A stretch of DNA of 64,000 nucleotides from Hypomesus transpacificus (taxonomy: Eukaryota; Chordata; Actinopteri; Osmeriformes; Osmeridae): the NCBI RefSeq assembly GCF_021917145.1, contig NC_061063.1:5026510-5090509 (forward strand). Direction: 5' to 3'. The position numbers were made by a program, and so were the translations under genes. Shown in pieces: positions 3,475 to 53,680 of the stretch (its first letter is position 1; each line of letters starts with the position of its first letter). The notes below the pieces were generated by a model. That model was not told where the DNA came from and did no database searches. It saw only the letters and a program-made list of their open reading frames with translations.

Positions 3475-9397
<5,923 letters not shown>

Positions 9398-43734: not shown

Positions 43735-46322
43735 ATGGGGATGCTGTGTTTCCGGTTGCCCGGTCACGGTGACACCACCCTGAAGCACATGAACTCGCTG
43801 AGGTCCAAGCAGCACTTCTGTGATATCACCATTGTAGCGAGCGGCAGCCAGACGTTTCGGGGACACAAGGTGGTGCTGGCTGCCTGCTCTCCTTTCCTCA
43901 GAGATCAGTTCTTGCTCAACCCTTCCTCAAAACTACAGGTACAACCCATGGTCTAAAACAAGTCTCAATATGTAGCCTTCCTAATACAGTATAGGGGATA
44001 ACATCATCCACTAATAGCATATCCAGTCATTCTGTATAGGCTGATTTCATATCTGAGGCAGCTAGACAGGAGTACACCGTTTTTGGGTTGTTTGGGCTAA
44101 TCCATCCAATTTCCTGGTAGGGGATGCCAGCCTAATACTTTCACTTCTCCATCCAGATCTCCAGAAGGTCACAACGGCCCGGGATGGTGCTATAGTCGTT
44201 GGCTCTGTTCTTATCAGTGTTACACAGACATAGTTTGAGGCATATTACAGCAGCAAAACATTATGATAGAATATTTGAACACATTTAGTACTGTGACCAA
44301 CAGACATATTTAGCATACTACCTGACAGATCCCCCCCCCCCTCCCAGGTGTCAGTGCTTCACAGTTCCAGTGTGCTGTGGGATCTGCTCCTGTCCTGTTA
44401 CACTGGGGTGCTGCAGTTCAGCCACAAGGAGATCGTGAACTACCTGACAGCCGCTAGCTACCTGCAGATGGAGCACGTTGTGGAGAGATGTCGAGGAGCC
44501 CTGAACAAATACATGCAGCCGAGGAACCCCAGTCCACCCCAGGTGAGCTGTAGTCTTCAACATGATCATCTCATGGCCCGAGGAACCCCAGTCCACCCCA
44601 GGTGAGCTGTAGTCTTCAACATGATCATCTCATGGCCCGAGGAACCCCAGTCCACCCCAGGTGAGCTGTAGTCTTCAACATGATCATCTCATGGCCTCGG
44701 AGGTTGTTTGAAGTCAACAGCTGACTGAATGCAGTTTACGATCCCGATTGTGATGGCCTTCAGACGTGGAAATTCAATGAAAAGTCTTTAGATTACTGAT
44801 TATACTTTAGCTTTGTGATATAGCTTATTAAATAAGGGTTCCTATGTGGTCAGGCCATTTCTCAAAATGTTTAAGTGCACCTCATCTTCAAATATTAACT
44901 TGACAGCAGAACTGTTAAATAACCTACATTTTGAAAAATCTAAAATGATCTTTACATCTTTCTTTTTTTAATCCTTGCTTCTTTTCAGAGCATAAAAACA
45001 GAGGAGGGCTATTCGCTTCCCTCTATGTCACCTGTTGACCATTCCTCTTCTGCACAGTCCCCGGGTGATACCACTGACACACATACCCAGACAACCAACG
45101 ATACCTGCGGCTCACTGGATGATTCCCTGATAAAGGTGTGGGTGTGTTCACCTGCAAAACAATGGATGCATCTGTCTGGCTAGTGCCAGTGCAATGTTCA
45201 GCAGTTAACATGATGGTCAAATTTGCACCACTCATTCCTAGTGTCTGGTTGTTTCAGGTGAATATCTTAGAAGATGAGGAGTCCAGAGAAGACTATGGTG
45301 TCGACCAGGTGTACATTCAGGAGACCGGGCAGGTGATAGTCACCAAAAGAGAGGCAGAGGGTGACGAAGCCGACCCCACGGAGGAGCATGTTTACCTGGG
45401 GACGGACAGCATCATGGTGGAGGGTGATAGGGCAGAGGGAGAAGGGGAAGACACCGCCTCAACAGCAACAGATCTGTGTATTAGCGGATTCATGAGGGAG
45501 GGGCTCAACGCTCTGAGACGCCGTCTCTCTGAGCCTAAAGGGGGTCGGGGGAGAGGAAGGGGGAGGGGGTTTAAGAAGAGGAAATGGAGCTCCTTCAACG
45601 AGAGGAGGTCTGTAGGGGTTTCCTTTCCAGAAGAGTGGCCCTTTCCTACCGCAGGGGACATCACGGGGCAGGGCTTCGGCCTGGACTTCAGCCAGGAGGC
45701 ACTGAGGGCGGCCTACCTGGCTGGCGAGCTCCCCCAGCTGGACTTCAGGGTCGGGGAGACTCAAGGAGAGGAGGCCACCCCTGGAGATGCTGGTGGTACA
45801 GCCCATTATAGCTTGGATGAGGAAGGTCGACTGGAGATGGGGGCCTTACCAACGGACGAAGTGGGTGACGAGTCCGTGGCAGTGGTAGGGTCCACTTCCA
45901 GCGGCGCGGGGCCAGTGGCATGTGAGCACTGCGGACTAACGTTCCCCTCGGCCCACTCGCTGGCCGTCCACTCCCGCTCCACCCACCTGCTGTACGTGTG
46001 CCCTTGCTGTGGGAAGCACTTCCACCACTCCACCAACCTGGACCGTCACATGAGCGTCCACCGGGGGGCCAAGTCCCACAGCTGCCCGCTGTGCTTCAAG
46101 ACCTTCACCCAGAAGTCCACGCTGTGCGACCACATGAACCTTCACAGCGGCGAGCGGCCGCACCACTGTGCCTACTGTCACGCTCGCTTCGCCCACAAGC
46201 CCGCCCTGCGGCGCCACCTGAAGGAGCAGCACGGGAAGACGACGGGGCAGAACTCTCTCCACGAGCAGGCGGAGAAGCAGAGGGAGCAGGGGGAAGGAGG
46301 GGGGGGGGCTGCCTCTCAATGA
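43735..46322 (+). CDS. zbtb12: BTB/POZ and C2H2 zinc-finger protein ZBTB12
   Basis: Four coding exons: 43735-43938, 44348-44542, 44989-45135, 45258-46322, in phase, giving 536 aa. It is a nuclear DNA-binding regulator of the BTB-ZF family. The BTB domain covers about residues 20-125 ([52 protein letters not shown]). An acidic and basic linker includes [15 protein letters not shown]. Four C2H2 fingers start near residue 404 ([29 protein letters not shown]) and end [10 protein letters not shown], the sequence that marks ZBTB12. The exon at 43696 begins with a short 5' UTR; the ATG at 43735 was chosen because MLCFRLPGH aligns with the family N-terminus. Exon 2 ends inside a 59-bp triplication that repeats its donor. 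It is convergent with nelfe and divergent from ehmt2. Confidence 0.94.
44521..44697. repeat. zbtb12: 59-bp tandem triplication over the zbtb12 exon 2 donor
   Basis: Three practically identical copies begin at 44521, 44580 and 44639. Each starts GAGGAACCCCAGTCCACC and carries the exon end CCCCAG with the donor GTGAGC. The same donor therefore occurs at 44543, 44602 and 44661. Confidence 0.95.
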
Positions 46323-46977: not shown

Positions 46978-49265
46978 TCACAAGAAATCTTCACTGTAGA
47001 CAACTTGATTCCTCTTGTCCCTGTACGAACCTTTGGCACTGTTCTGAACAGCTGGGAAGAGGAGAAAACATACGATTTGTTGACAATTAGCACATAGATC
47101 AGATGCCATACTCAGAAAAGGATTTTCGTTTTTGCTGGGTAATTTAACAACCCTATGGTGTACGACCTAGTGATACTTACCCAGCGAGGCCCAGACAGAT
47201 TTGCCAGTAGCTGCATCCAGCATTGGTTGCTTTCTGGCAATGCTGACTTTGATAGGGATCTCCCCTACTGTACTTCCATTCAGCTGAGAGACAGGAGAGA
47301 GACAGCAGCACCTCCAGGTCAGATGAATACCATGTGGGATACAGTGATGTGAGGACCCTAAACCGGCCTACAGTGCCTCACCTCAGCAACCACCTGATCC
47401 GCTGACTCCATCTTCTCAAAGGTGATGAACGCGCAACTTAAGGTAAAAGTGAGAAGGGATATGAGTAGGAGAAAAACCGACCACATACAAGTTCAATTCT
47501 TCAAAACCATGTGTTTGCACTGTAATCAAGTATTTTGTCGCTGTGCTGTCTTACTTGTGCGGGTTGTCCATTGTGAGGTCTATGATGTTGCCATGCAGTG
47601 AGAAGGCAGAGCGCAGGCTGTCCTCCACCAGGCCAGAGCCATACACGTACACTGTGTTCCCCTTCCTCACCCCCCGCCGCTCCGGGTATGAGTCCGATCC
47701 TGGCACAGGAGAATTGAAAGGCAGAAGAAGAAAGTCTTCATTTGATTCATTTAGCAGACGCTTTTATCCAAGTGACCATTGAATAGTGATATACTAAGTA
47801 AAGCTGATCATCAAGGACAAAACCATGGAAGGAGAGTAAGAAATAAATACAATGTTTTATGGTCAGTGATTAAAATAAGCAATTTGTGTATAGGATTACG
47901 AACATGACATTATAAAATATGGGCAGCCGATAGGGCGGCGACTCACGTCTGAACGGTCCGTCTCTGTCTCTCTCCCGGTCTCGTTCCCTGCTCCTGTCCC
48001 TCTCTCTGTCGTGCTCCCTATCCCTGTCCCTCTCTCTGTCGTGCTCCCTATCCCTGTCCCTTCCTCTGTCGCGATCTCTCTCCCTGTCCCTCTCTCTCTC
48101 TCTGTCTTTCTCTCTGTCCACCTCCCGTTCGCGCTCTCTGTCCCGGTCCACGTCCCTGCTGGTGAACACGACACCGGGGTCCTCGTCGTCACGGGAACGC
48201 TCCCGCTCGCCTGGGCTGACAAAGCTGACGCAGAGGAAGAGATGTTAGGAGGAGGGATGTTTGACTTCCAAGCAGAGGAAACAGAGAGTAGAAAACACGA
48301 TGCCGTTAATTATTCACAAGAGCTTTTAGGGTTACCTCTCATACAGAGATTTTCTGCTGGCTCTCTTGCCGGACTAGAGGGAAAAATTTTAAAATTTAAA
48401 AGAGAACAGATTCTGTTATCTTCTGAAAAGATTTTTACGCCATGTTGAAATACTACGGAAATTTGAACCCTAAAGGAGGATTCTATTCCGTTATTAGGAT
48501 TTTCCCTTGTAATCTTAGTACCTCAGGTAGCTCTTCATCAATGGAGACGCTCCTTTGGAATGGTAGGAAGGCTGGAATTGGGCCTTTTTCTGGGTCCTTG
48601 AGGAAGAACAGATTTGAACTGATAAGTGCTGGTTCATAAGGGTAATACCCGTAAGACAGTTATGTACTATTTATGCTTGTACCACATGTATCCACCTTTA
48701 GTTTGATCTCTAGTGTTCTGGAGCGTTTAAAGCCAGAGTTTTTGTTTTCTGACTTGATTGCACTTATGGCTCCGGACTTGATCAACATTTTAGCCTGCTC
48801 CGTAGCTGTCGCTGTGTCGACTACAGGCTGGTCTGACAGGGCTAGGAAAAGTAAGGAGAGAGAGAGCACAGTGAGAGACAAGCTAATATGCAGGGATTCC
48901 ATGGAAATAGGCACATCATTTTAAATGAATATTTGTATTTTGAAGAGAAAACTATGATCAGTGAAAACACACATACTCCGTTTTAAACCACTCTGATTCG
49001 TCTGGCTTGTTGAACTCTGCTTTTTCAAAGCCATTAGGGCTTTTTTCTTGAGGAGAGAGAAAATACATTGTAAATAGGGAAAATAGGCTGGTTATTGGTC
49101 TACTGAATACCACACCCATACTTTTTTACAATTAGTAATGGTATCGCAGTTTTTTCTTGAAAAAAGTGATGTTTGTTTCTATTTAGATACCTTCTTTTTG
49201 AGTTTGGCATATTTTTTCTGCAACGACTCCTCTTCCTCTGTCAGAGAGCTAGGGAAGACCACCAT
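46978..49265 (-). CDS. nelfe: Negative elongation factor subunit E (NELF-E, RD protein)
   Basis: Ten minus-strand exons: 49191-49265, 48977-49046, 48696-48841, 48522-48596, 48336-48373, 47947-48224, 47555-47699, 47382-47436, 47181-47283, 46978-47051, giving 352 aa. NELF-E is the RNA-binding subunit of NELF, which with DSIF holds RNA polymerase II in promoter-proximal pause. The N-terminus has a coiled-coil-prone [16 protein letters not shown]. Then come [18 protein letters not shown] and [19 protein letters not shown], conserved in NELF-E. Exon 6 (about residues 135-227) encodes the Arg-Asp/Arg-Glu dipeptide tract that names the protein. The RRM runs from about 238 (KGNTVYVYG) through [15 protein letters not shown]. 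The end keeps [15 protein letters not shown] and [14 protein letters not shown] 5' noncoding exon is likely, since an acceptor TTCACAG precedes the start exon. It is divergent from skiv2l. Confidence 0.96.
47748..47777. repeat. Fish retroposon tail fragment in nelfe intron
   Basis: CATTTAGCAGACGCTTTTAT followed by CCAAGTGACC is the same tail core, in the opposite orientation, as that ending the SINE at 32206-32378. Confidence 0.7.
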
Positions 49266-49905: not shown

Positions 49906-53580
<3,675 letters not shown>

Positions 53581-53680
53581 NNNNNNNNNNNNNNNNNNNN
53601 NNNNNNNNNNNNNNNNNNNNNNNNNNNNNNNNNNNNNNNNNNNNNNNNNNNNNNNNNNNNNNNNNNNNNNNNNNNNNNNN
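53581..53680. other. Assembly gap (100 N) inside skiv2l
   Basis: Exactly 100 N, the usual placeholder for a gap of unknown size. The left edge ends in a GT microsatellite, a likely cause of the break. Exons for about 600 residues of Ski2 are missing between 53428 and 53914, so the real gap must be several kilobases. Confidence 0.97.

Follow-up and report, generated by a model that had tools for sequence, protein, structure and literature searches.

The zbtb12-like gene of Hypomesus transpacificus contains a 59-bp unit repeated three times, head to tail and with zero differences, across the border between exon 2 and intron 2, and each copy carries its own splice donor. This triplication is present in the assembly, in the 64,000-nucleotide stretch analyzed here (the window), and it looks real: a young and exact triplication of a segment that holds a splice donor, of an ordinary kind. 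The array is read here, with moderate confidence, as a young minisatellite-like triplication that is mostly silenced through the use of donor 1, and not as a switch. The preliminary description had proposed a built-in switch between the full factor and a form with the BTB domain but no zinc fingers; that reading lacks support.

The period-59 identity spans 44519 to 44696, giving an array of 178 bp in total (Table 1). Each 59-bp unit starts with the final 24 nt of exon 2, crosses the border at the donor CAG/GTGAGC and continues for 35 nt into intron 2, and the end of exon 2 together with GTGAGC is seen in all three units, as had been described before. The copies had also been called near-identical and placed at 44521–44697; their number and length hold, whereas the copies are in fact identical, and the earlier span, although in the right place, is off by one to two bases. 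The 119 bases matching at period 59 constitute the longest exact tandem match of the window (periods 10 to 1000 scanned), and the array is the only one listed in the window under a complexity filter (periods 20–1000). As head-to-tail copies of a unit of 10–100 bp, it has the form of a VNTR or minisatellite, and with an AG/GT in every unit of a tandem repeat, it also has the form of the repeats with dual-specific splice sites. On the plus strand of the window, CAGGTGAGC occurs at the three array places only, and two further occurrences lie on the opposite strand. Furthermore, a 401-bp query around the array finds one matching place in the 437-Mb genome (376 contigs), in a search that skips simple repeats and very common words. 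The single genomic match gives no sign of a spread element, and a dispersed repeat or mobile element was rejected.

Table 1. Coding exons, repeat units, donors and nearby motifs of the zbtb12-like gene, in window coordinates.
Feature	Position	Strand	Description
Coding exon 1	43735..43938	+	ATG to CAG/GTACAA
Exon 2 as set by donor 1	44348..44542	+	195 nt, phase 0
Exon 3	44989..45135	+	147 nt, phase 0
Last coding exon	45258..46322	+	four C2H2 patterns; one stretch passes Pfam zf-C2H2
Unit 1	44519..44577	+	exon 2 end (24 nt), donor 1, intron 2 start (35 nt); exact tandem copy
Unit 2	44578..44636	+	identical to unit 1; holds donor 2 (44602) and in-frame TGA 44603–44605
Unit 3	44637..44695	+	identical; holds donor 3 (44661), the donor adjoining the remainder of intron 2
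Donor 1, CAG/GTGAGC	44540..44548	+	sole donor keeping the full frame on direct splice to exon 3
Donor 2, CAG/GTGAGC	44599..44607	+	also AG/GT acceptor candidate; +59 nt, 154 aa, TAA in exon 3
Donor 3, CAG/GTGAGC	44658..44666	+	also AG/GT acceptor candidate; +118 nt, 153 aa, TGA 44603–44605
Intronic near-complement	44708..44725	+	15/18 to the first 18 nt of each donor; can pair locally with donor 3
CCTCGG at array end	44695..44700	+	inverted copy of CCGAGG opening each unit

Joined together, the four coding exons form one frame of 536 codons plus a stop, and each of the three introns has GT at its start and AG at its end. The N-terminal part contains a BTB domain (Pfam PF00651, E 6e-23, residues 19–121, scored in the 153-aa form), and four C2H2 patterns are located at residues 404, 430, 458 and 486 of the 536-aa protein, of which one stretch only passes Pfam zf-C2H2 at E<=0.001. 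A BTB domain followed by four C2H2 patterns fits ZBTB12 as it is described in PMC9911396. No ZBTB12 chain stands among the best 60 of the 84 PDB sequences matched. The name zbtb12 is putative and leans on the domains and on the neighboring genes. Six of the ten other open frames of the window matched something in Pfam at E 0.01, including a choline transporter, ankyrin and a DEAD helicase, the last of these below the Pfam curated cut-off. Such neighbors (slc44a4, ehmt2, skiv2l) would suit the class III block, a conserved part of the major histocompatibility region. The DEAD-helicase-like frame, which we take to be skiv2l-like, is situated at 52881–53261 near a 100-N gap (53581–53680), and a 43-bp two-copy repeat at 53443–53529 adjoins the same gap. 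On the minus strand, an open frame at 47870–48244 is rich in RD/RE repeats with a DNA period of 30 bp and resembles NELFE. Pfam matches at 5393–8114 to zf-C4 and Hormone_recep mark DNA-binding and ligand-binding parts of a nuclear receptor, presumably a thyroid hormone receptor.

The three donors lead to different coding outcomes when spliced in silico to exon 3. By an approximate consensus all three score as strong donors: 6 of the 3872 GTs on the plus strand score as high, the three of the array included. Donor 1 (44543) yields a 1611-nt frame encoding 536 aa with the BTB domain and all four C2H2 patterns. With donor 2 (44602) the product is cut to 154 aa by a TAA whose final base is base 7 of exon 3, and 140 nt separate this stop from the junction that follows. 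With donor 3 (44661) the product has 153 aa and terminates at the TGA at 44603–44605, the following two junctions lying 55 and 202 nt further on. The T of this TGA is the second intron base under donor 2; hence, the codon is read only with donor 3 or with a retained intron 2. Skipping of exon 2 in silico keeps the frame and leaves 471 aa. The donor starts and the start of exon 3 (44989) had been given correctly from the sequence in the preliminary description, and its statement that donors 2 and 3 leave a BTB domain without zinc fingers is borne out, the BTB domain being retained (PF00651 at 6e-23 in the 153-aa form) and no fingers remaining in the short forms. Its further statement that the frame from either donor runs into a TGA inside the second copy holds for donor 3 but not for donor 2, which stops at the TAA in exon 3. 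A stop lying 50–55 nt or more before a junction marks an mRNA for decay, and both short forms are predicted decay targets by this usual rule. The decay-targeted fate suggested earlier thus agrees with the distances found, whereas decay-bound forms make poor dominant negatives.

In a teleost zbtb12-like gene, a 59-bp piece across the border of exon 2 and intron 2 would have been tandemly duplicated and then triplicated, recently and probably in two steps. The pre-mRNA would carry three equal donors 59 nt apart, and donor 1, which is transcribed first and borders on the complete native exon, would be used in most transcripts to form the normal mRNA and the 536-aa protein. Occasional use of donor 2 or donor 3 would add 59 or 118 nt, shift the frame and bring a stop at 153–154 aa, followed by nonsense-mediated decay. 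The array would then be a nearly neutral and probably length-variable repeat, slightly lowering the zbtb12 output without any regulated choice. The unit length of 59 cannot be divided by 3, and there is thus no hint that selection favored an insertion in frame.

The donors are identical, and therefore position and wider context should decide between them. A reporter library on 81 native tandem 5' site contexts indicates (PMC6783452) that the first site is predominantly used when both sites match the consensus, and this result is said there to resolve earlier conflicting evidence. Donor 1 is favored here because that test covered many contexts in cells. The opposite outcome, in which the intron-proximal donor 3 wins and most mRNA gains 118 nt and decays, would make the array a recent loss-of-function or hypomorphic zbtb12 allele. 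Such an allele is unlikely, though it keeps some weight, as PMC6002489, citing Roca 2013, states that the intron-proximal of two comparable 5' sites is favored. In the same paper the footprint of U1 is put at 23 nt on the upstream side and 12 nt on the downstream side; the 59-nt spacing exceeds it, and therefore all three donors could be occupied at once, which also suits donor 3. However, this outcome runs against the library result, and the remainder of the gene is an intact frame, though that would be true of a young allele as well. According to PMC5861446, both alternative 5' sites could be occupied while one alone was used, and in the case of DOK7 (PMC5585400), SRSF1 moves the choice to the intron-proximal site.

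RNA structure was rejected as a donor selector. The array region folds no better than its shuffles (z -0.84; 34 of 200 shuffles as good), and the predicted unpaired probabilities of the donors overlap at 0.26–0.47 over three span limits and two contexts. The intronic near-complement downstream of the array can form a duplex of -18 to -19 kcal/mol with a donor, matched by 1 of 300 base-shuffled introns. With a span limit of 70 nt, this segment pairs with donor 3 only, and longer spans shift the pairing partly to donor 2 or donor 1. The complement was not built on as a selector, as its partner varies with span; it has no clear effect on the predicted donor access.

An assembly artefact, in which the true copy number is one or another and the unit was repeated by the assembler, appears fairly improbable. 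The copies are perfect and are known from one assembly, and the 100-N gap lies in the same window. However, this gap is the only N run of the window and is 9 kb away, while the array measures just 178 bp. In addition, no second copy of the locus was found with the 401-bp query in its own genome, and an array of exact 38-bp units runs for 709 bp elsewhere in the assembly, which suggests that long reads were used.

That longer array (L010:8561–9269; 18.7 copies) belongs to a comparison of 23 other loci of the assembly, namely 20 loci and 3 neighbors, with 222,110 non-N bases in total and parts of two loci reading N. Exact high-complexity arrays (periods 20–500) occur in 2 of the 23. Within the same 10 kb of L010, two further exact arrays are situated at 5791–6594 and 7022–7184. 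Taking about 200,000 donors per genome, positions no more than one unit away from a donor make up approximately 2.7% of the genome. A very rough hand extrapolation from the two loci gives some thousands of exact arrays per genome, and in order of magnitude a hundred array-on-donor hits would be expected before selection, again from these two loci. The repeat itself is certainly beyond chance, but the coincidence of repeat and donor is not clearly so; given that 2 of the 23 loci hold such arrays, it would not be remarkable for one to fall on a donor by chance. Regarding age, zero substitutions in 177 sites bound the divergence to ~1.7% per copy, and within this bound an array called young may still be as old as millions of years. 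Regarding origin, the period-59 identity comprises three units plus one base; therefore, the microhomology at the junction is at most about one base. One unit with the CCTCGG flank, folded as DNA, reaches -9.9 kcal/mol (z -1.95; 9 of 200 shuffles as good), and an origin by replication fold-back followed by slippage is possible.

Each unit reads CCCCAG/GTGAGC, and its AG/GT is a candidate acceptor as well as a donor. It is highly improbable that these sites work as dual-specific recursive sites, with the AG/GT serving also as an acceptor and the extra units leaving as 59- or 118-nt introns from an unchanged mRNA. Unit removal in silico does give back the exact full frame, and a CTCAT branch-point candidate is located 28 nt upstream of the AG. 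Under an approximate consensus, 219 of the 4431 AGs score as high as the unit AG or higher; for the gene's own acceptors the corresponding counts are 121 (exon 4), 11 (exon 3) and 8 (exon 2). However, the pyrimidine tract is weak, two earlier AGs follow the branch-point candidate, and only 30 nt separate donor and branch point. An intron of 59 nt is very short for a vertebrate. Recursive splicing was rejected as the main reading on the weak acceptor, the earlier AGs and the very short intron. The human UBC gene is spliced in this way within a tandem repeat, and VCX3A shows an extra-copy polymorphism (PMC10809524), but dual-specific sites tend to have weaker motifs in that report and are underrepresented among annotated sites, whereas the array donor is strong. 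Since each additional unit begins with GT and finishes with AG, a copy-number-proof donor, from which units are stripped one or two at a time as mini-introns, is conceivable; it would represent an intermediate of intron birth at an existing donor, and its chance is slim. In that event, the array may grow or shrink while the mRNA stays constant.

Although the 153-aa form retains the whole BTB domain, a regulated switch between full ZBTB12 and the BTB-only protein is the most remote of the readings, with donors in identical surroundings, overlapping predicted accessibilities, both short forms predicted to decay, a unit out of frame, and the nearest known array, UBC, spliced without tissue-specific or feedback regulation (PMC10809524).

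A real array would provide a natural test of an old dispute, that over the spliceosome's choice among several equal donors. Because the copies are identical over 59 nt, they differ mainly in position, and the frames make the choice readable as full protein versus premature stop. If the last donor wins, the allele is damaged. A real array would also add a fish case to the AG/GT tandem repeats, where repeat growth may seed introns.

Among the titles listed in literature searches, none concerns a tripled donor in zbtb12, which is not a claim of absence from print, and several known systems share parts of its architecture. Human UBC and VCX3A (PMC10809524) likewise contain a head-to-tail repeat with one AG/GT per unit, and the span from site to site equals whole units. 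In contrast, the zbtb12 unit spans an existing exon/intron border, its 59 nt are not a multiple of 3, and its acceptor use is a candidate only. Intron gain by duplication of AGGT-bearing segments is represented by the Rogers model, ATP2A1 and a potato RdRp variant (PMC4974935). As in the Rogers type, one doubled AGGT yields a GT and an AG, and removal of the copy leaves the peptide unchanged; however, the AGGT of zbtb12 was already a donor before duplication. The potato RdRp variant also crosses an intron–exon border, but its donor comes from the exon and its acceptor is inherited. In DOK7 intron 4 and in the library of PMC6783452, nearby donors compete for one acceptor, and in DOK7 one donor choice shifts the frame (PMC5585400). 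The DOK7 donors are 11 nt apart and unequal, whereas those of zbtb12 are three, identical over the 59-nt unit and made by the repeat. Distal exonic recursive splice sites (PMC10156609) similarly have an AG/GT at the exon end that may act as an acceptor; there, the upstream intron and the exon leave together, whereas zbtb12 would lose the repeat units alone.
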